From NCBI GenBank assembly GCA_016282595.1, contig JAEEKV010000050.1, positions 1 to 36,023 of the forward strand: a DNA stretch of 36,023 nucleotides, in the 5' to 3' direction. The position numbers were made by a program, and so were the translations under genes. This document shows positions 249 through 12,048 of the stretch, piece after piece. This DNA is from Lachnospiraceae bacterium (GTDB lineage: Bacteria > Bacillota > Clostridia > Lachnospirales > Lachnospiraceae). The notes below the pieces were generated by a model. It saw only the letters and a list, made by a program, of their open reading frames with translations. It had not been told where the DNA came from and ran no database searches. How positions within the stretch are numbered: position 1 is the first letter of the stretch; the number at the start of each line of letters is the position of its first letter.

Positions 249-274
249 AAAACAGGCGCTGCGGCGTCTGTTTT
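249..274 (+). terminator. Second hairpin AAAACAGGCGC-TGCG-GCGTCTGTTTT
   Basis: 11-bp stem with one G-U pair, A-rich 5' arm and T-rich 3' arm; tandem with the hairpin at 205-227. Confidence 0.5.
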
Positions 275-335
275 GCAACGTAAAGCAATGCCCGATTCAA
301 AATACACAGGGGCAGAAAAAGTGGGAGGAAGTATC

Positions 336-3300
336 ATGGAAAAAAGAAGCAGAACGATTCTTTGGACGATCACAACGTTTGCACTGGCTATCCTCTTTGC
401 GGCAATCCCGGCGGCAAAGGTAAAAGCAGGCCCCACCTCTTATGGTATCTGGATCGGAGATCAGCAGTTTGATTCGGATCATACGAGGATCTATGATAAA
501 AACGGAGAAAGCGGCGGTGGATATGCGGAGTATGATAACGGAGATAATACCCTTACCTTCCACAACTTCGCAGGTGTAGATCCGAAGCATTTGTATAATA
601 TAGGGGATGAAGCAAATCCCGCATATGCTCAGGTTTATGCCAAAGGGAAGGGAACCTTGAACATCAAGGGAAATGCATCCCTTTTGAATGATGAAGCCAC
701 CTACGGGATTGAAGTTGTAGGCGATTTTACGGATGGTATGTATATTCTTTCCGATGCGGATATTGAAGTGTCCGGGAAATGTGCAGTTTATAGTATCGGA
801 AACCTGTACGTGCAGGGAAAACTGACGGCAACCAGTCGCAGGGAAGGGGGTAGCGCTGTACTTGCCAGTTATATTTCCGTGTACAAAGGAGCCTTAGTCA
901 ATGCGACGGTTTACGGAGGCTGGGGTGAGGCAATCCGGGCCTATGCGGCCATGGATATCGTCGGGGAAGTGAATGCGGCTGTTATTGTTGAGGATGATGC
1001 CGATTTGCCTGCTTCCGAGAAATCACAGGCCATTCATATGAGTTCCCCGGTTTCGACGCTTACATTTTCTGATGGATGTAAAGTGACTGCAACTGCAGGA
1101 GGAAAAAACGGCGTCGGTATTGTAAGTGCCGGAGGAATGGAAATCTATGAGTGTGATATTACTGCTTCCGGAACCTATGAAGCCATGAGTGCCGGAATGA
1201 TCTCTACCTATCAGGATACCTATTACAGAGATAGTGAGAATATCGTGCTAAGAGACAACCAAAAGGAATTTGTAGATAGCAAAGGCAACCCTGTCAAAAA
1301 TATACGTTTTGTAGATGTACAATGGTACGATATCTGGGTGGGAAACAGCCGTATTAACAGCGATAATTGCTACCGGATTCCCGGCATTCGGGGAGGCGGA
1401 AGTGCGACCTTTGATCCGGATAAAGGGGTTCTTACCTTCAACGGAGTTGTCAGCGGCGTGACCGGCGTAAAGGATAATAAGTCCGATGAAGATAACGCTC
1501 TGTTGTGGATTGGACAGGATATGACAATAGAAGGGGAGGCAGTGCTGAACTCCGAGGCAGCGTATCAGGCTATCCGTGTAGCACCAAACAGAACCCTTAC
1601 TATTAACGGTACAATCACAGCAAGTGGAGATGTTTACGGAGTATCGGTGGATGGAAATTCGAAGCTTGTTCTAAACGGATCCCTGCAGGCTTCAGCGAAG
1701 GAGACGAATTATTATGCCGTTAAGGCAGGTAGCATTCGAATTTCTGAAGAGGGATCTTTGGAAGCAGGCCTGAATGGTAATGCTCCCGGAATTAGTTGTA
1801 TCAATGCTCTGGTGATTGACGGCGGCTCGTTGGTTGCAAAGAATAATGGTGGTGGTGCTGCTATCGCTGTATCAAGGGATTTGGTGCTGAATGACGGTTA
1901 TGTGAATGCGGAGGGAGCAGGAAATACGGTTGCCGCCGTCTCAGTTTCGGGAGAGGCTATAGTCAATGGTGGTGTGCTGGAGGCTACCACCAAGAGCGCG
2001 ACAGATCATTCGATTCATGGAAATCTAACCGTAAATGGGGGATTGGTGAAAGCTGCCGCCACCGGAGATGATTCCTATGCGATTTATTGCGATGGGGAAA
2101 AACATTTGACAATCAATGGCGGAACCGTGGAAGCAAAGGTGACGAATAACCCGGGCTCCGGGGCTGCAGTTTATGCCCAAAAGTTATTTATGAGTGGAGG
2201 AACCCTGACGGCTGCATCCGATTATGACGGCATATATGCAAATTCGGGGCTGAACCTTTACGGAGGAAAGATCGTTGCAACCGGTTTGAATAAGGACGGA
2301 ATCTTTTCCAATAACACCATGGAAATCTCAGCAGGGGAAATAGAAGCTTCAGGGAAAACCTATGGAATCAACCTTAAAAAGAAGCTGACTATTGACGGAG
2401 GTAAAATTCTGGCAAAAGGGGATACTGCTGCGATTTATGTGCACGTAACAGATGGCATTAAGCTGCAGGGTGATGCAGCCATAAGCAGTCCGAAAAATGC
2501 ATCGATCCAATCCTTTACTTCTCCGGTGGTGTGTACAAGTGTAACCATCGATGGTATTACTTATGAAAAGGAGGTAATCATCGAGGGATCTGAGCAGTAC
2601 TCATTGTGGATAGGAAATACCCGGGTAACAGAGGGAAATGCAACAGAAATACAGGGAGTTCTGGGAGGGAAGGCCTCTTATGATCCAATGACCCATACCC
2701 TGACCTTTGCAAATGTAACCGGAATCACGGGATCTGCTCCTACAGCACCTGTACAAGCACAGATCTATTCCCTGGGTGATCTGACCATCGATGGAACAGC
2801 TGATTTAGATGCAGATACCGAATGTGTGATTTATATGGCCGGTGGCAGCAAGCTGACGATGATCGGAGATTTGACCCTTTCTTCAAATCAGAATTATTCG
2901 GTTTATGCATCTGATTTGGAAATACCGGGATCCTTGACTGCATCGTCCAAGAAGGAGACTGCTGTATATGTTGATGGCAATCTGAAGGTGTCGGGAAATT
3001 TGGATGCCACGACGGAGTCGGGAACGGCTGCTGTTCAGGTAAAAATAGGATGGGCTGATATATCCGGAAGTGTCGATGTATTTACGAAAGACGGAACCTA
3101 TGGGTTTTATGTAACAGGGGGCTCGGCTGATGTATCCGGTCAGTTGACAGCTGAGGCTACTTCAAATTGTGCATGCTACATAAAAAAAGCGCTGAATCTT
3201 ACCGGAACAGCAGACTTCAAAGCAAGTGGGGCTGAAGCCGCCCTTACTGTGGGAGGATCCGGCATCATTTCCGGAATGCTGAACGCCCGGGCCAACAAAG

Positions 3301-4541
3301 CAGAAGCTTTTATTGCAAATGGAAGCATTATTGTAAATGGCGGAAAAGTGACTGCAACTTCAACGGAAGCTTCCGGAATCAGTTCGAAAGACAATCTGGA
3401 AATTAACGCAGGATCTGTGGAAGCTACGGGAGCGACGGCAGCCATCACCGTTGTCGGGGAGATCAAATGTTATAACGGCAGTATCATCCTGTTTCCGGAG
3501 GATGCTGGATTTTCCGCAGGGAATATGATTGTCAATGGTGACGGATCGGAGGCAACCCATGTCTTGATCGGCCCGGCTCCGAAGGTTGTAGTGACCTTTG
3601 ATGTGGGTGGCATTGGCAGTGCCCCTGAAAAGCAGAGCATTACCGGGGGAAGACGTGCAACAAAACCTGCAAAGGATCCGACGGCGGAGTGTAAGGTCTT
3701 TGAGGGCTGGTATAAAGATTCCCAATGCTTGCAGGAGTACGATTTTGCCGATCCTGTACTATCTGACATAACAATCTATGCCAAGTGGAAAAGCGGGCAT
3801 GACATAAAGCCTGTAGCAAAGAAGGACGCCACCTGTGAAGAAGCAGGCAATGATGCCTATTATATCTGCAGTAAGTGCGGCAAGTGGTTTTCAGATGCAG
3901 AAGGTACGAAAGTGATCCCGGATCATAACACCATGATCCATGCAGCCCTGGGACACGACTGGGGAGAGTGGAAGATTACAAAGGAAGCCACCGGGGATGC
4001 AGAAGGACAGGAAATGCGTGTATGCTCCCGGGATAAGAATCACACCGAGACCAGAAGCATTGCCAAAAAGACGGATGCCGGAACTAAGGATCCTGCAAAG
4101 GGAGAAACCGTAAAGGATGAAAGCTCCAAGGGTATCTATCTGGTAACCTCTACGGAAGCAGGAAACCTTACCGTAACCTACGGGGGCCCTCAGGATGAAA
4201 CCGCGGCTGAACTGGTAATCCCGGATCAGATCACCATTTGCGGCAAGGCTTATAAGGTAACCGAGATCAAGGCAAACGCCTTTAAGAACAACAGGAAACT
4301 GAAAAAGATCACCATTGGTAAGAACATTAAAAAGATCGGCAAAAATGCCTTTTATGGATGCAAAAACTTAAAGAAGATTACCATTAAGACCAAGCTTCTT
4401 ACGAAAAAGAGCGTAGGGAAAAACGCCTTTGGAAAGATTCATCCCAAGGCCCAGGCAAAGGTGCCTTCCAAGAAAAAGAAAGCCTATAAGACCATCCTCA
4501 GAGCAAAAGGCATGAAGGGAAAGAGCCAGAAAGTAAAATGA
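336..4541 (+). CDS. Large secreted repeat protein: carbohydrate-binding/beta-helix-like repeats, one InlB B-repeat-like domain, C-terminal BspA-like LRR
   Basis: Signal peptide MEKRSRTILWTITTFALAILFAAIPAAKVKAG; three 'Y-[DGS]-[IL]-W-[IV]-G-x...LTF' modules; VTFDVGGIGSAP...FEGWYKDSQCLQEYDF...ITIYAKW; CSKCGKWFSD; C-terminal KVTEIKANAFKNNRKLKKITIGKNIKKIGKNAFYGCKNLKKI. SD GGGAGG precedes ATG 336, which is preferred over the ORF-track start at 273. Confidence 0.8.
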   Translation: MEKRSRTILWTITTFALAILFAAIPAAKVKAGPTSYGIWIGDQQFDSDHTRIYDKNGESGGGYAEYDNGDNTLTFHNFAGVDPKHLYNIGDEANPAYAQVYAKGKGTLNIKGNASLLNDEATYGIEVVGDFTDGMYILSDADIEVSGKCAVYSIGNLYVQGKLTATSRREGGSAVLASYISVYKGALVNATVYGGWGEAIRAYAAMDIVGEVNAAVIVEDDADLPASEKSQAIHMSSPVSTLTFSDGCKVTATAGGKNGVGIVSAGGMEIYECDITASGTYEAMSAGMISTYQDTYYRDSENIVLRDNQKEFVDSKGNPVKNIRFVDVQWYDIWVGNSRINSDNCYRIPGIRGGGSATFDPDKGVLTFNGVVSGVTGVKDNKSDEDNALLWIGQDMTIEGEAVLNSEAAYQAIRVAPNRTLTINGTITASGDVYGVSVDGNSKLVLNGSLQASAKETNYYAVKAGSIRISEEGSLEAGLNGNAPGISCINALVIDGGSLVAKNNGGGAAIAVSRDLVLNDGYVNAEGAGNTVAAVSVSGEAIVNGGVLEATTKSATDHSIHGNLTVNGGLVKAAATGDDSYAIYCDGEKHLTINGGTVEAKVTNNPGSGAAVYAQKLFMSGGTLTAASDYDGIYANSGLNLYGGKIVATGLNKDGIFSNNTMEISAGEIEASGKTYGINLKKKLTIDGGKILAKGDTAAIYVHVTDGIKLQGDAAISSPKNASIQSFTSPVVCTSVTIDGITYEKEVIIEGSEQYSLWIGNTRVTEGNATEIQGVLGGKASYDPMTHTLTFANVTGITGSAPTAPVQAQIYSLGDLTIDGTADLDADTECVIYMAGGSKLTMIGDLTLSSNQNYSVYASDLEIPGSLTASSKKETAVYVDGNLKVSGNLDATTESGTAAVQVKIGWADISGSVDVFTKDGTYGFYVTGGSADVSGQLTAEATSNCACYIKKALNLTGTADFKASGAEAALTVGGSGIISGMLNARANKAEAFIANGSIIVNGGKVTATSTEASGISSKDNLEINAGSVEATGATAAITVVGEIKCYNGSIILFPEDAGFSAGNMIVNGDGSEATHVLIGPAPKVVVTFDVGGIGSAPEKQSITGGRRATKPAKDPTAECKVFEGWYKDSQCLQEYDFADPVLSDITIYAKWKSGHDIKPVAKKDATCEEAGNDAYYICSKCGKWFSDAEGTKVIPDHNTMIHAALGHDWGEWKITKEATGDAEGQEMRVCSRDKNHTETRSIAKKTDAGTKDPAKGETVKDESSKGIYLVTSTEAGNLTVTYGGPQDETAAELVIPDQITICGKAYKVTEIKANAFKNNRKLKKITIGKNIKKIGKNAFYGCKNLKKITIKTKLLTKKSVGKNAFGKIHPKAQAKVPSKKKKAYKTILRAKGMKGKSQKVK

Positions 4542-5920
4542 TAAAACAGGAAAAACAACAGGCTGAAAGTATGTATGAGGGGAGCTTGTGGGACAAGATC
4601 CTGAAATATGCATTTCCCCTGGCGGCAACGGGCATTTTGCAGCAGCTTTTCAATGCTGCGGATATTGCGGTTGTCGGACGGTTTACCGGAGATAAAGGGG
4701 CACTGGCTATGGCGGCGGTAGGTGCCAACAGTCCCCTTGTAGGACTGGCTTTGAACCTTTTCATGGGAATTTCTCTGGGTACCAATGTCATCATTGCCAA
4801 TTCTGTGGGAAGTAAGGATGAAAGGGCCATCCGGAAAGCGGCTCATACCTCCATTGTATTTGCCCTGCTTTCAGGACTGGTTTTGGCTGTTTTGGCGGAG
4901 CTTTTTTCCGGACCTATCCTTCGTTCCCAAAGTATCCCGGAGGAAGTGCTTCCTATGGCACTTCTGTATTTCCGTGTCTATATGTTCGGAATTCCCGTGA
5001 TCATTCTGTATAACTTCATATCCGCAATTTTCCGTGGGCTGGGCAATACCAGGACGCCTTTGATGGCGCTGGTATTTTCCGGCCTGCTAAACGTCTTATT
5101 GAATCTGTTCTTTGTGCTGATCCTGCACATGACCGTGGAAGGCGTGGCAGCGGCTACCGTCCTCTCCAACGGTGTCAGCTCCGGAATCCTGCTGCGGGAT
5201 CTGAACAAGCCCGATTCTCCGGTACGCCTGAGGCGAAGAGAACTGAAGATCGACGGACAGATCCTGTCCAGGATTCTTCGCATCGGTATTCCCGCAGGGC
5301 TCCAATCATCCGTCTTTGGTTTTGCAAACATTCTGATCCAGTCGGCCATCAACAGCCTGGGAACCATTGTTATGGCAGCATCCTCTGCAGCCTTCAATAT
5401 TGAGATCTTTGTGTATCAGGTATTCAATAGCTTTGCACAGGCCACAACTACCTTCGTGGGACAGAATTTCGGTGCAGGGAAGATCAAGCGCTGTAAAAAG
5501 ACCCTGTTTTTGTGTTTGGGAGAAGGAGCAGTCTTTCTCGGCATGGCCATAGCCCTGGTGCTGTTTTTCGGAAAGCGGATGCTTTCGGTGTTCAATCCCG
5601 ATCCCCAGGTGGTGGAAGTGGGGTATGTACGTCTGCTTTTGATCTTTTCGGCCTATTACTTCAGCCTGACCTATGAGTCCCTGTCAGGGTACCTTCGTGG
5701 CTTCGGAATCTCCGTGATCCCCGCAGTCCTTACCATGATCGGCGTCTGCGGCGTCCGCATCACCTGGATCTACGCGGTGTTCCCCAGATTCCGCACCTTT
5801 TCCAATATCATGCTGGTGTATCCCCTGAGTCTTGCGACTACGGCGGTGCTGTTGCTTGTAGCGACGCTGATTCTGAGGCCTGCCAGAAAGTGGATGAAAT
5901 CCGAGAACGGTTCTGACTGA
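4538..5920 (+). CDS. MATE family efflux transporter
   Basis: 460-aa polytopic protein (WDKILKYAFPLAATGILQQLFNAADIAVVGRF...); overlaps the upstream stop (ATGA). The last codons lie in the 19-bp inverted repeat. Confidence 0.9.
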   Translation: MIKQEKQQAESMYEGSLWDKILKYAFPLAATGILQQLFNAADIAVVGRFTGDKGALAMAAVGANSPLVGLALNLFMGISLGTNVIIANSVGSKDERAIRKAAHTSIVFALLSGLVLAVLAELFSGPILRSQSIPEEVLPMALLYFRVYMFGIPVIILYNFISAIFRGLGNTRTPLMALVFSGLLNVLLNLFFVLILHMTVEGVAAATVLSNGVSSGILLRDLNKPDSPVRLRRRELKIDGQILSRILRIGIPAGLQSSVFGFANILIQSAINSLGTIVMAASSAAFNIEIFVYQVFNSFAQATTTFVGQNFGAGKIKRCKKTLFLCLGEGAVFLGMAIALVLFFGKRMLSVFNPDPQVVEVGYVRLLLIFSAYYFSLTYESLSGYLRGFGISVIPAVLTMIGVCGVRITWIYAVFPRFRTFSNIMLVYPLSLATTAVLLLVATLILRPARKWMKSENGSD

Positions 5921-6223
5921 CATAGCCATGGTTGATTATGATGGCTTTGTCGGTTCGGGTGCACTTTCACGGTCGCTTTCCGCCATATGGTGATCTTCTA
6001 AGAAAACGCAGGCCTGCGATTTACGCTATACACGGGTCGGGCCCAAATGCCATCCGGGCACTGTGGGCCCTGAATCGCACATCCGTGTGCGATTCTCCCT
6101 GATTACGGCAAGCTGCGTTTTCAAGAATCTCATCCATCTGACGGGCTTGCGCCGCGCCCGAAAAGTCACCCGCAACCTCCGCCATCATAGTTCAGTATTT
6201 GAAGATGTCAGTCAGAACCGTTC
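5905..6223. repeat. Imperfect-palindromic intergenic element with 19-bp terminal inverted repeats (MITE-like or structured RNA)
   Basis: GAACGGTTCTGACTGACAT (5905-5923) vs ATGTCAGTCAGAACCGTTC (6205-6223), perfect 19 bp. Nested inside: TATGATGGC/GCCATCATA, GGTTCGGGTG/CACCCGcAACC, GAAAACGCAG/CTGCGTTTTC. Central hairpins: GGGCCCA..TGGGCCC and GAATCGCACA-TCCG-TGTGCGATTC. TCCGAG direct repeat at 5900-5905 and 6222-6227. Confidence 0.75.
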
Positions 6224-6318
6224 CGAGCCCACTATCTGTGATACATCTATGGCAAAAAATCAGAGAATATGATATGGTATAAATTAGTAGAATTTTGCAC
6301 AGGAAAGGATGACTGAGC

Positions 6319-7452: not shown

Positions 7453-10400
7453 ATGAACGAGATCATTCTGGAGCTATCGGCCTTCGGCATTTCGCTGTAT
7501 TGTATGGTGGATAGTCTCCATAACAGAAAGAATTTATATCTTCCCCTGGACAAAACCTGGTTGGATCGCCTGAAAAACCAGCACTTTACCTATATGCTCA
7601 TGCTGGTGATGCTGATGATCTCATCTGTAGCATCTGCCATTGAGATTGCCATGGAGCAGTATATCGGCGTCGAGAATGTGACGCTGCTTATGACGTTTAA
7701 TGAGATCTATTTTCTTTCTCATTGTACGCTGAGTTTTGTATTTACCCTGTATATCATCAACATGACAGATGTGGCGCGGGGGAAGAGTAAGTGGTTCTTT
7801 TTGTCATTTTTGAGTCCCTATTTTTTCTGCGAGCTTCTGGTGATTGTCAATCCCTTCACCAAATGGATCTTCTATATCGATGAAAACTTTAAATATCAGC
7901 GTGCCCACATGGTATGGCTTGTGTATGCAGTGGCAACCATCTATATCGTTTTGGGCATCTACTATTTTTTCAAATACAGAAGCAGACTGGTAAAATCAGA
8001 CCGGTACTCTGCATTCATTTTGATGAGTGTGGCAGTGATCGGAATCGTGATCCAGGGCTTTTCTTCCATTACGGTGGAGCTTTTCTTTGAGGCTATTTCC
8101 TTTTTGGGCTTCATGCTTCTTTTGGAGGAGCAGGGCATGGCCTTTAACAGTGAAAGGCGTTCCCGTGTCAGCAAGGGCTTCATTCTGGTAATCGCCCTCA
8201 TTTTTACCACCATTATCCTGATGAACATTAACCTGATCTACCATGCAGGTACGGATCAGGCGGAAAAGATCGGTAGGATCCAGATCGACAATCTGAAGGG
8301 AGAGTTTCAGGAGGCTATTTCCGAAGCGGAGGGAAATCTCCTTCGTTATTCCATGGGTTTGGAGCAGATGCTCAGTGACAATGCATCCCTTGATGACATT
8401 GAGGTATATATCAGGGAGCAAAAAGACTATTTTACCCAGATGAACGGAAGCAACTGTTTTAACGTGTATGCAGCCTGCAATGACTGGAGCATCATTCCGG
8501 ACTTCGATATGCCGGCCCATTACCATGCGGTGGAGCGCGTCTGGTACATCGGCGCCACCCAGAACGCCGGGGAGATCTATATTACGGAGCCCTATGTGGA
8601 TGCAGCTACCAGGGAGCTGTGCTTTACCCTGTCCTATACCTTATCCGATGAAAACGTGGTTGCGGCCATGGACTTTACCCTTTTGGGGGTGCAGGATATT
8701 GTGCAGCGGATGGGAAGTGAGGAAGGACAGATGGCCCTCATCGTAACGGATGAAGGTACCATTGTCGGCTGCTCGGATCTTACCATGCAGGGAAGAAAGC
8801 TGACGGATGTACTTCCGGAATACGAGGAGATTTTTGAATGGGTAAAAGCCTCCTCGGAGCATCACAGCTTTGACGCTACGGTAGAAGGAGCAAAAAAACA
8901 GGTCTTTTCTTCCGAAACGGGTAACGGCTGGCAGCTGATATTGGTGGAAAATTCCGAAATGCTCTACGGTAATATCTACAGGCAGATGATCATGTTAGGA
9001 GCCATCGATATCCTTATGGTTGTGGTGATCATCGTATTTTACATGGTGAGTGTAAACAACCAGGAAAAGGCGGAGCAGACCCTTTCCATGACGGAAAGCT
9101 TTATCGCCGGAATTTCCGAGGACCTGAAAAAGCCTTTGCAGGAGATCATCCGCATCAGTGATCTGTCCATCCGAGGGGAGGATGCGGACGCCGCGGAATC
9201 CCTTGTGAATATCCGGGAAACCGGAAAACTGCTGCGGGAAAAGATGGACAATCTCTTTTCCTATGCAGGTCTTATCAAGACAGGAATTGCAGAGGAGAGA
9301 AACATTAAGTCCAAGCAAATGAGCGGGCCGGGAGCCATTTCTTCCCGATATATCCGAAACGGTATCATCGGCATTTTGGCAGGGGTCCTTTTGGCCAGTC
9401 TGTTTTTGTGCCTAGTGACTACCACCAGATGGGGCGAGACCAAGATTTCCAAGGAAGCCGACAGATACAATGATGAGCTGACATCCTGGATGCAGCAGCA
9501 GATCAGCATCCTGCGCATGTTCTCGGATGTGATCATTGCAGACCCTTCCGTTTTGGATGACTACGACGAAGCCGTAAAATGGCTGGATGACATTGCCCAG
9601 AATTATTCGGATCTGTCCTTCTGCTATATGGCAAATCCTTATAACAAGGAGCATCAGGTTATCATGAACAACGGCTGGGTACCGGAGCCGGATTATAAGG
9701 TAGAAGAGCGGCAGTGGTACAAGGATACCGAGCGTTCCGGCGCGGAGTGTACCATTTCCGCACCTTACTACGATTCCCAGACGGGACTGTACTGCGTCAC
9801 CTTTTCCAGAAGCTGCTACTCCAAGGATGGAAACTTTTTGGGAATCTTCGCCATCGACTGCTTTATCGATAAGCTCATCGACGTATTGGATGATTCCTAT
9901 ACCAAGGAGGGATATGCCTTCCTGGTGGATCAGGATGGGGTTATCTTAAATCATCCGGACAAGCGCTATGAGATGAGCTCTGAGTCCAGCGTGAACATTG
10001 AGGATACGGGCTACTTTGACGTTTATCGAAACGGTAACGCCTTCTTTATGCAGGATTATGACGGAAGGTATGTGACGGCTTATGCGGCAAAGAGCGAGAT
10101 GTCCGGTTTTACCGTGGTTATGGTACAGAGCTGGTGGACGATTTACGGTGCCGTGATTTTGATGGCTATCATCTTCCTGATTATGATGGGCGGCTCCATC
10201 TTTTCCGTAGCGTATATGATCAATCGATTCATTGTCTGGCAGGAAGAGTCCAACATCCAGCTCAAGCTGGCGGCAGAGGAAGCAGTTTCTGCAGGAAAAG
10301 CAAAATCCCGCTTCCTGGCCCAGATGTCCCATGAGATCAGAACTCCTATCAATGCAGTGCTGGGTATGAATGAGATGATCCTCAGGGAATCCTCGGATGA

Positions 10401-12048
10401 TTCCATTCGGGATTATGCAGGCAACATCCAGACAGCGGGCAGAAACCTTTTGGGCCTTATCAACACCATTCTGGACTTTTCCAAGATTGAAGAGGGCAAG
10501 ATGGAGATCGTGCCTGTTCGGTATGAAACGGCGGTGATGGTGGATACTTTGATCCACTCCATCGAACAAAGAGCCGTGGATAAGGGGCTGACCTTTGAAG
10601 CCCATATTGATCCCGAGCTGCCCTGTGTTCTGTATGGTGATGATATGCGGCTTTCCCAGGTCATCATAAACCTTTTGACAAACGCCGTGAAATATACCCC
10701 CGAAGGTCGGGTGGATCTGTATATGAATAAGATCCGTGCCAATGCGGATGCGGTTTTGATCGGAGTGAAGGTAAAGGATACCGGAATGGGTATCAAGAAA
10801 GAGGACATCGGAAAGCTCTTTGAATCCTTTACCAGACTGGATGAGACCAGGAACCGGAGCATCGAAGGTACGGGACTTGGTATGGCTATCGTTACCAAGC
10901 TTTTGGAAATGATGCATTCCAATCTGTCGGTGGAAAGTGAGTACGGAAAAGGTTCGGAGTTCTCCTTTGAGGTGCAGCAGTCCATTTTGGATCCGGAGCC
11001 TTTGGGAGAATATAAAAAGAAGGCCAGGGAAATGTCCGGCCAGCGCAGTGAAGAGACCTATCTCTATGCACCTGAAGCCCGACTTTTGGTGGTGGATGAT
11101 AATGATCTGAACCTGAAGGTTATTAAGAACCTGTTAAAGCTCAATGGTATCAAGCCGGATCTGGCATCCTCCGGAGCTCAGGCACTGACCCTGTTAAAGG
11201 AGAATACCTACGATGTCGTTTTGCTGGATCATATGATGCCTCATATGGATGGTATTGAAACCCTGAACCTGGCAAAGGAGCAGGGTATCATCAAGGAGAA
11301 CGAGACGGTGATCGCCCTGACGGCCAATGCAGTTGTGGGAGCTAGAGAAAGCTATCTGGCAGCGGGCTTTGATGATTATCTTTCCAAGCCTGTGGAAGTT
11401 CGGTCCATGGAGCATGCACTTTCCAAGTATTTGCCAAAGGAGATCGTGGAATACCGTACCAAGGGTGGCAGCAATCCTTCAGGTTCCGCAGATCAGGGAG
11501 CAGCAGGTAAAACATTAACCCAGGAAACTAAGCGGGATATTTCACAGCATCCTATGCAGGATACGACGTCGGAGTCAGCGGGACAAAAGGCTGCAGCCGA
11601 GGATGAGGTTCTGGAGTTTGCGCCCGGTGGAGATGATGTTTTAGAGTTTGCACCCGGAGCTGAACAGGAAGAAACAGGGGCTTCTCAAAACACAGGAGCA
11701 GACCTTTTCGAAAGGCTGAAGGAGCTAAAGTTCCAGGTACAGGAAGGCCTTGGCTACTGCATGAATGATGAGGACTTCTACAAGGAGATCCTGGGAGATT
11801 ATGCAGATACCTGTGAGGAACGGATCGCAGAATTGTCAGCGGCTCTTGAAAAACAGGATCTGGAAACCTATCAGATCCGGGTACACGCCTTAAAGAGCGT
11901 AGCCAAATCCGTGGGAGACGGGCAGGTCTTTGAAATGGCAAGAAGTATGGAGGAGGCAGCCGCGGCTCGTGACGAAGAGCAGGTAAAAGCAGGCCACGGA
12001 CCTTTAACAGAGCGCTACAAAGCCTCTATGGAAGCCATCCGAGGATAA
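7453..12048 (+). CDS. Hybrid sensor histidine kinase: N-terminal TM region, extracellular sensor, DHp-like segment (no HATPase), second extracellular sensor, HisKA-HATPase-REC-HPt
   Basis: HisKA AQMSHEIRTPINAVLGMNEMI; HATPase RLSQVIINLLTNAVKYTPEG, DTGMGIKKED, GTGLGMAIV; REC RLLVVDDNDLN..VVLLDHMMPHMDGIETL..SKPVE; HPt IRVHALKSVAKSVGD. Starts 21 nt after the Ldh gene. Confidence 0.9.
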   Translation: MNEIILELSAFGISLYCMVDSLHNRKNLYLPLDKTWLDRLKNQHFTYMLMLVMLMISSVASAIEIAMEQYIGVENVTLLMTFNEIYFLSHCTLSFVFTLYIINMTDVARGKSKWFFLSFLSPYFFCELLVIVNPFTKWIFYIDENFKYQRAHMVWLVYAVATIYIVLGIYYFFKYRSRLVKSDRYSAFILMSVAVIGIVIQGFSSITVELFFEAISFLGFMLLLEEQGMAFNSERRSRVSKGFILVIALIFTTIILMNINLIYHAGTDQAEKIGRIQIDNLKGEFQEAISEAEGNLLRYSMGLEQMLSDNASLDDIEVYIREQKDYFTQMNGSNCFNVYAACNDWSIIPDFDMPAHYHAVERVWYIGATQNAGEIYITEPYVDAATRELCFTLSYTLSDENVVAAMDFTLLGVQDIVQRMGSEEGQMALIVTDEGTIVGCSDLTMQGRKLTDVLPEYEEIFEWVKASSEHHSFDATVEGAKKQVFSSETGNGWQLILVENSEMLYGNIYRQMIMLGAIDILMVVVIIVFYMVSVNNQEKAEQTLSMTESFIAGISEDLKKPLQEIIRISDLSIRGEDADAAESLVNIRETGKLLREKMDNLFSYAGLIKTGIAEERNIKSKQMSGPGAISSRYIRNGIIGILAGVLLASLFLCLVTTTRWGETKISKEADRYNDELTSWMQQQISILRMFSDVIIADPSVLDDYDEAVKWLDDIAQNYSDLSFCYMANPYNKEHQVIMNNGWVPEPDYKVEERQWYKDTERSGAECTISAPYYDSQTGLYCVTFSRSCYSKDGNFLGIFAIDCFIDKLIDVLDDSYTKEGYAFLVDQDGVILNHPDKRYEMSSESSVNIEDTGYFDVYRNGNAFFMQDYDGRYVTAYAAKSEMSGFTVVMVQSWWTIYGAVILMAIIFLIMMGGSIFSVAYMINRFIVWQEESNIQLKLAAEEAVSAGKAKSRFLAQMSHEIRTPINAVLGMNEMILRESSDDSIRDYAGNIQTAGRNLLGLINTILDFSKIEEGKMEIVPVRYETAVMVDTLIHSIEQRAVDKGLTFEAHIDPELPCVLYGDDMRLSQVIINLLTNAVKYTPEGRVDLYMNKIRANADAVLIGVKVKDTGMGIKKEDIGKLFESFTRLDETRNRSIEGTGLGMAIVTKLLEMMHSNLSVESEYGKGSEFSFEVQQSILDPEPLGEYKKKAREMSGQRSEETYLYAPEARLLVVDDNDLNLKVIKNLLKLNGIKPDLASSGAQALTLLKENTYDVVLLDHMMPHMDGIETLNLAKEQGIIKENETVIALTANAVVGARESYLAAGFDDYLSKPVEVRSMEHALSKYLPKEIVEYRTKGGSNPSGSADQGAAGKTLTQETKRDISQHPMQDTTSESAGQKAAAEDEVLEFAPGGDDVLEFAPGAEQEETGASQNTGADLFERLKELKFQVQEGLGYCMNDEDFYKEILGDYADTCEERIAELSAALEKQDLETYQIRVHALKSVAKSVGDGQVFEMARSMEEAAAARDEEQVKAGHGPLTERYKASMEAIRG

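Follow-up and report, generated by a model that had tools for sequence, protein, structure and literature searches.

A long palindrome at the 3' end of a MATE gene, in the 36,023-nucleotide stretch of Lachnospiraceae DNA analysed here (the window), is best explained as a full-length but old copy of a non-autonomous transposon that spreads a putative CsrA-decoy RNA, a reading to which we give a probability of roughly 0.6. Its parts differ in firmness. That the RNA family TwoAYGGAY (Rfam RF01731) is the interior of a miniature transposon is well supported, and the assignment of the element to the MITEs is very probable, while the role of the RNA as a CsrA decoy, which it resembles, is somewhat favoured. 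The first-pass annotation of this DNA had offered two alternatives, a MITE-like element and a large structured RNA, and could name no family; the evidence supports both halves at once, since the element comes from a mobile family whose members carry terminal inverted repeats and duplicate 7 bp of their target, and its interior is a known structured RNA.

The palindrome itself is real and strongly non-random. Inspection of the sequence recovered the perfect 19-bp inverted repeats at 5905-5923 and 6205-6223 and the two apical hairpins (Table 1), both as originally described, and the nested stems reported for the interior are likewise present, the 341-nt stretch folding at -152.6 kcal/mol against -103.6 +/- 5.6 kcal/mol for shuffled sequences (z = -8.8; 0 of 100 shuffles as good). 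The element contains no ORF, in agreement with the earlier reading. The placement between the MATE and Ldh genes needs qualification: the element does otherwise sit between them, but the stop codon of the MATE ORF (4538-5920) falls within the left terminal repeat, so that the element begins in the end of the gene and is not strictly intergenic. In a boundary fit the best borders were 5907 and 6221, with terminal repeats perfect over 17 of 17 positions and a scored complementarity of 14 out of 14; the combined score of 13.0 lay above that of every one of 300 mismatched flank pairs, the best of which reached 11.5. The 6-bp direct repeat TCCGAG, once guessed to be a target-site duplication, survives as the six matching positions of a 7-bp duplication. 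An inverted duplication of the MATE gene end was also considered as a source of the arms (the MATE protein of genome G003 ends similarly, in GSE*) and dropped, the terminal repeat and the 6/7 target duplication being simpler.

Table 1. Features of the palindromic element, in window coordinates
Feature	Position	Strand	Basis
Whole element, 315 bp, full-length but old TwoAYGGAY miniature-transposon copy	5907..6221	-	Boundary fit; length is the mode of TIR-bounded members (303-315 bp); G001 ortholog fits 314 bp
Left terminal inverted repeat ACGGTTCTGACTGACAT	5907..5923	.	71 nt outside Rfam hit, against 71-74 nt in the family elements compared
Right terminal inverted repeat ATGTCAGTCAGAACCGT	6205..6221	.	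75 nt outside Rfam hit; 14/14 complementarity
Left target-site duplication TCCGAGA	5900..5906	+	6/7 identical to right copy; family duplication 7 bp
Right target-site duplication TCCGAGC	6222..6228	+	Boundary fit; decayed to 4/7 in G001 ortholog
Part common to other copies in the same genome; 97% identical in orthologous copy	5951..6183	-	BLASTN and ortholog comparison
TwoAYGGAY RNA, Rfam RF01731	5978..6146	-	59.5 bits (gathering 43), full model 1-168
Apical hairpin 1, GCAC-ACGGAT-GTGC on minus strand, GGA at 6082-6084	6072..6095	-	CsrA SELEX site shape (PMC7652899)
Apical hairpin 2, CCCGGATGG in its loop; second GGA (6053-6055) 29 nt from first GGA	6039..6070	-	Spacing of 27-31 nt prevails among copies
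Left outer arm, locus-specific, pairs with 6184-6204	5924..5950	.	Absent from other copies in genome; paired in fold
Right outer arm, locus-specific	6184..6204	.	Genome copy comparison, fold, ortholog
MATE stop codon inside left terminal repeat	5918..5920	+	ORF 4538-5920; Pfam MatE

A scan of the window element for promoters and terminators returned no terminator and two weak promoter-like matches inside the element ends, against 0.8 expected. These hexamers point inward from both ends (6211-6184 on the minus strand, 5913-5942 on the plus strand), and the minus-strand -10 is, by eye, apparently not kept in the orthologous copy of genome G001. The locus as a whole is flanked by a 1422-aa BspA-type leucine-rich-repeat protein (273-4541) and by a 1531-aa Cache hybrid histidine kinase with receiver and Hpt domains (7453-12048).

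The identity of the interior emerged from the Rfam comparison that had been proposed as a check, which gave a full-model match to RF01731 on the minus strand, the RNA-like strand of the element; both hairpins with AYGGAY-like loops are present in the window copy, as ACGGAT and CCGGAT. TwoAYGGAY was found computationally in 2010 in the human gut, gamma-Proteobacteria and Clostridiales (Weinberg et al. 2010, PMC2864571), and its binding by CsrA was proposed in 2014 from a motif search, the authors calling for validation (PMC4333381). Rfam assigns the family to clan CL00106 together with CsrB, whose membership we confirmed by scanning E. coli csrB, and gives it the type label Cis-reg; about half of the element lies outside the Rfam model. 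No description of RF01731 as a mobile element was found in the literature searched.

That the element is mobile is indicated by its distribution. BLASTN against the genome of the window (G000; 2.9 Mb, 84% complete) returned nine matches, the window copy included, so that it is neither single-copy nor without homologs, and the same genome holds five RF01731 hits; homology among these copies ends at about 5951 and 6183, the outer arms being specific to each locus. RF01731 is present in eight of 61 relatives, and a single genome may have as many as 20 matches. Comparison with empty sites, also suggested at the outset, was informative at two conserved gene pairs: the ilvD-ilvB site is filled in G004, the genes lying 47-115 bp apart in six congeners, and the pgk-tpiA site is filled in G006 and empty in G001, G005 and G002. 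Multiple dispersed copies and empty sites, as expected of a MITE, are both found. The 53 copies compared share no neighbour gene and show no orientation bias (classes 18/14/11/9). These observations bear on the possibility that the RNA regulates a neighbouring gene in cis, here MATE or Ldh, for which the Rfam type label and the retention of the element between these genes in the sister species G001 could be cited. The neighbours, however, vary by copy across all four orientation classes, conserved operons contain empty sites, and the Rfam strand is antisense to both MATE and Ldh; we hold cis-regulation to be highly improbable, and the Cis-reg label looks wrong.

Some arrangements of copies deserve separate mention. 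In one relative (L138, G028:C2, about 8100-11550) a 3.4-kb insertion that adjoins parS-like TGTTTCACGTGAAACA sites has three TwoAYGGAY copies, placed within it and at or close to its ends, the whole block being missing in congeners; the elements may help to mobilise or bound accessory genes. In another (L070 and L071, G014:C47 and C33) copies facing opposite ways form two pairs, at distances of about 240-300 bp, with cores 85-88% identical and arms unrelated.

In several genera the outermost stem of the copies reads GATTCGGGTGTCAAAAGG, and scanning genome contigs with this end yielded 115 stretches, mostly from Lachnospiraceae. Sixty-six elements in Lachnospiraceae contigs are bounded by inverted copies of it, the 18-bp repeats being conserved in active relatives; the match between their flanking 7-mers is 71%, and 43% when the flanks are permuted, 21 duplications are perfect, and direct-repeat lengths of 3-6 and 8-11 remain at background. 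RF01731 occurs in 18 of 18 full-length loci tested (295-315 bp) and in 0 of 18 shorter ones, which for this reason look like internally deleted derivatives. The window copy gave no nhmmer match to a sequence profile of the full-length elements, and since its ends read ACGGTTCTGACTGACAT, not recognisably GATTCGGGTGTCAAAAGG, it is assigned to the family by core, layout and duplication, and not to the GATTCGGGTGTCAAAAGG subfamily. ORFs near the 115 TIR loci included no recurrent transposase, and no parent insertion sequence was found. No neighbour gene recurs among the copies either, and carriage by plasmid or phage was rejected, the collections searched giving no match to the element.

Two further groups extend the family. 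Short elements of 38-245 bp (L254, L262, L266, L270, L275, L295, L313, L316, L324 and others) share the 18-bp ends and in many cases show 7-bp duplications, but lack the TwoAYGGAY core; within the MITE family they form a second class, a deleted one, whose targets look like TTTCCTA..TAGGAAA. The copies in G010 (L015 to L056) have other ends (AACTTCC...GGAAGTT) and make up a subfamily, in which AACTTCC sometimes recurs about 30 bp outside the first.

The copies that have aged in place suggest that the core is retained by the host. The window locus is orthologous in G001 (82.6% over 3.1 kb), where the core (5951-6183) is 97.0% identical beside 82.8% for MATE, 84.0% for Ldh and about 80% for the outer arms, a level of identity that at 17% divergence has a probability of about 1e-11; in a second orthologous pair the core is 97.9% identical and the flanking genes 83-90%. 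Orthologous cores (0.97, 0.98) are closer to each other than either is to paralogs of its own genome (0.83-0.90), which indicates descent and not conversion. The core looks constrained and is probably kept by purifying selection, as judged from one well-controlled ortholog pair with the support of the second.

The outer stem drifts and yet stays paired. Between the window copy and its G001 ortholog there are four two-sided compensatory pairs, two of them inside the 19-bp repeat, so that the compensatory changes whose absence was named earlier as an argument against RNA function do occur; 11 predicted outer-stem pairs are broken in the same comparison, so that pairing is imperfect in places. 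Paralogous arms are near shuffled identity, each pairing best with its own partner, as do 16 of 17 copies in G028 (own arm -63 kcal/mol, arm of another copy -26 kcal/mol). Arms so specific to each copy and so well matched to their own partners could have been supplied by host hairpins or terminators into which the core inserted. The long wide-gap inverted repeats in about 390 kb of G014 and 396 kb of G028, however, are nearly all TwoAYGGAY copies, which assigns the arms to the element and leaves no pool of empty hairpins, and recently active families share both arms and ends and finish in a target duplication; with no such reservoir, and with active copies bringing their own ends, we rejected this origin as scarcely credible. 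Other long inverted repeats, with gaps of about 95 bp and not of RF01731, were seen at L119 (about 10632-11366, G014:C47) and L136 (3110-3275), possibly another hairpin family.

Complementarity of the arms might alternatively be maintained by mutation, through template switching that corrects quasi-palindromes, and not by selection on the RNA stem. Correction of this kind is well established as a mutational mechanism, and both the almost perfect pairing of paralogous arms at shuffled identity and the four two-sided changes in the ortholog pair are consistent with it. It leaves the conservation of the core unexplained, however, and the non-Watson-Crick oppositions on the GGA strand, where G-U exceeds A-C (200 versus 142, p = 0.002; the second batch alone not significant), weakly support selection at the level of RNA; we regard a mutational origin of the pairing as improbable.

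The connection to CsrA rests on the company that the element keeps and on the shape of its loops. Among 395 genomes of the family that are at least 90% complete, CsrA is encoded in 56 of 59 RF01731 carriers and in 143 of 336 non-carriers (odds ratio 25, p = 1.6e-15, without tree correction), the carrier-list search scoring few candidates per genome, such that carriers may be missed; at the genus level the figures are 50 of 51 carrier genera versus 96 of 229 non-carrier genera. Flagellin is present in 59 of 60 carriers, and CsrA and flagellin so nearly coincide that, as correlates of the element, they are inseparable. The exceptions for CsrA are the incomplete assemblies G000, G179 and G335, all with flagellin, and one closed genome, G305, whose only copy is accompanied by neither CsrA nor flagellin. 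CsrA and FliW were not found in G000 (84% complete, flagellin present), G001 or G006, for which an assembly gap is possible at about 80% completeness, although three misses are noteworthy. At least two GGA hairpin loops, mostly 27-31 nt apart in the manner of CsrA sites, are found in 104 of 146 copies (71%) and at least one in 138, against about 10% and about 48% of shuffled cores; the remaining 29% or so, with fewer than two, include many copies with intact ends. In hairpin 1 of the window copy the six-base loop is closed by AC/GU (AC-ACGGAT-GT), as in CsrA SELEX ligands (PMC7652899), on a stem longer than is typical of those ligands.

The same data may be read without any function for the host, the GGA loops and the long hairpin serving the DNA element, for example where a transposase or host factor recognises it, and the association with CsrA reflecting carrier lineages that are flagellated relatives. 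Terminal repeats, target duplications and internally deleted derivatives are ordinary MITE biology, and the near coincidence of CsrA and flagellin means that the trait is clade-structured. A purely selfish MITE would not, however, be expected to leave old orthologous relics with cores at 97-98% beside genes at 83-84%, and the recurrence of GGA loops in most copies across many genera, together with the G-U excess already described, also speaks against it. We consider it unlikely, though less so than the other alternatives weighed here.

The preferred reading, a transposon that spreads a putative decoy RNA, would operate as follows. A MITE of flagellated Lachnospiraceae, acted on through its 17-18-bp terminal repeats by a transposase that is absent, would have inserted at the 3' end of the MATE gene, duplicating 7 bp, as the anatomy of the locus shows. 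Its interior encodes the TwoAYGGAY RNA, which would be transcribed from a neighbouring gene or from a start of its own, and the transcribed strand is predicted to fold into a hairpin of about 300 nt with two GGA loops about 29 nt apart, to which a CsrA dimer could bind. Several dispersed copies would then jointly titrate CsrA as decoys, the host probably keeping the core under purifying selection while the arms drift and stay paired. The broader proposal, that a transposable element spread a CsrA-antagonist RNA through flagellated Lachnospiraceae as a dispersed mobile decoy pool of variable copy number, possibly beside FliW, we advance tentatively, at slightly less than even odds. A CsrB-like function carried by a MITE is not described in the literature searched. 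A review of 2020 left open whether FliW and sRNAs act jointly on CsrA in any species (PMC7652899), a question that the CsrA reading of TwoAYGGAY touches; and for a family orphaned since 2010, identity as a transposon interior accounts for its patchy occurrence in multiple copies and opens the CsrA idea to direct testing.

Compared with known systems, the element shares with bacterial MITEs its short, apparently non-autonomous, TIR-bounded form, its target duplication, its multiple intergenic copies and its internally deleted derivatives, and differs in a core apparently under purifying selection after insertion and in carriers that coincide with one RNA-binding protein. With TwoAYGGAY as described it shares an apex that matches all 168 model positions on the minus strand; TwoAYGGAY has been described as an orphan RNA, whereas here it forms the interior of a transposable element of about 310 bp with terminal repeats and target duplications. 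The CsrA-sequestering sRNAs CsrB, RsmY and RsmZ resemble it in the GGA of hairpin loops, in paired sites and in membership of clan CL00106, but have many sites each where the TwoAYGGAY RNA has about two, and come from one or two fixed genes, not from dispersed mobile copies numbering up to 20 Rfam matches per genome. TwoAYGGAY, moreover, is found in Firmicutes that have CsrA, in which one would expect a protein antagonist such as FliW and in which binding of CsrA by the RNA is predicted.
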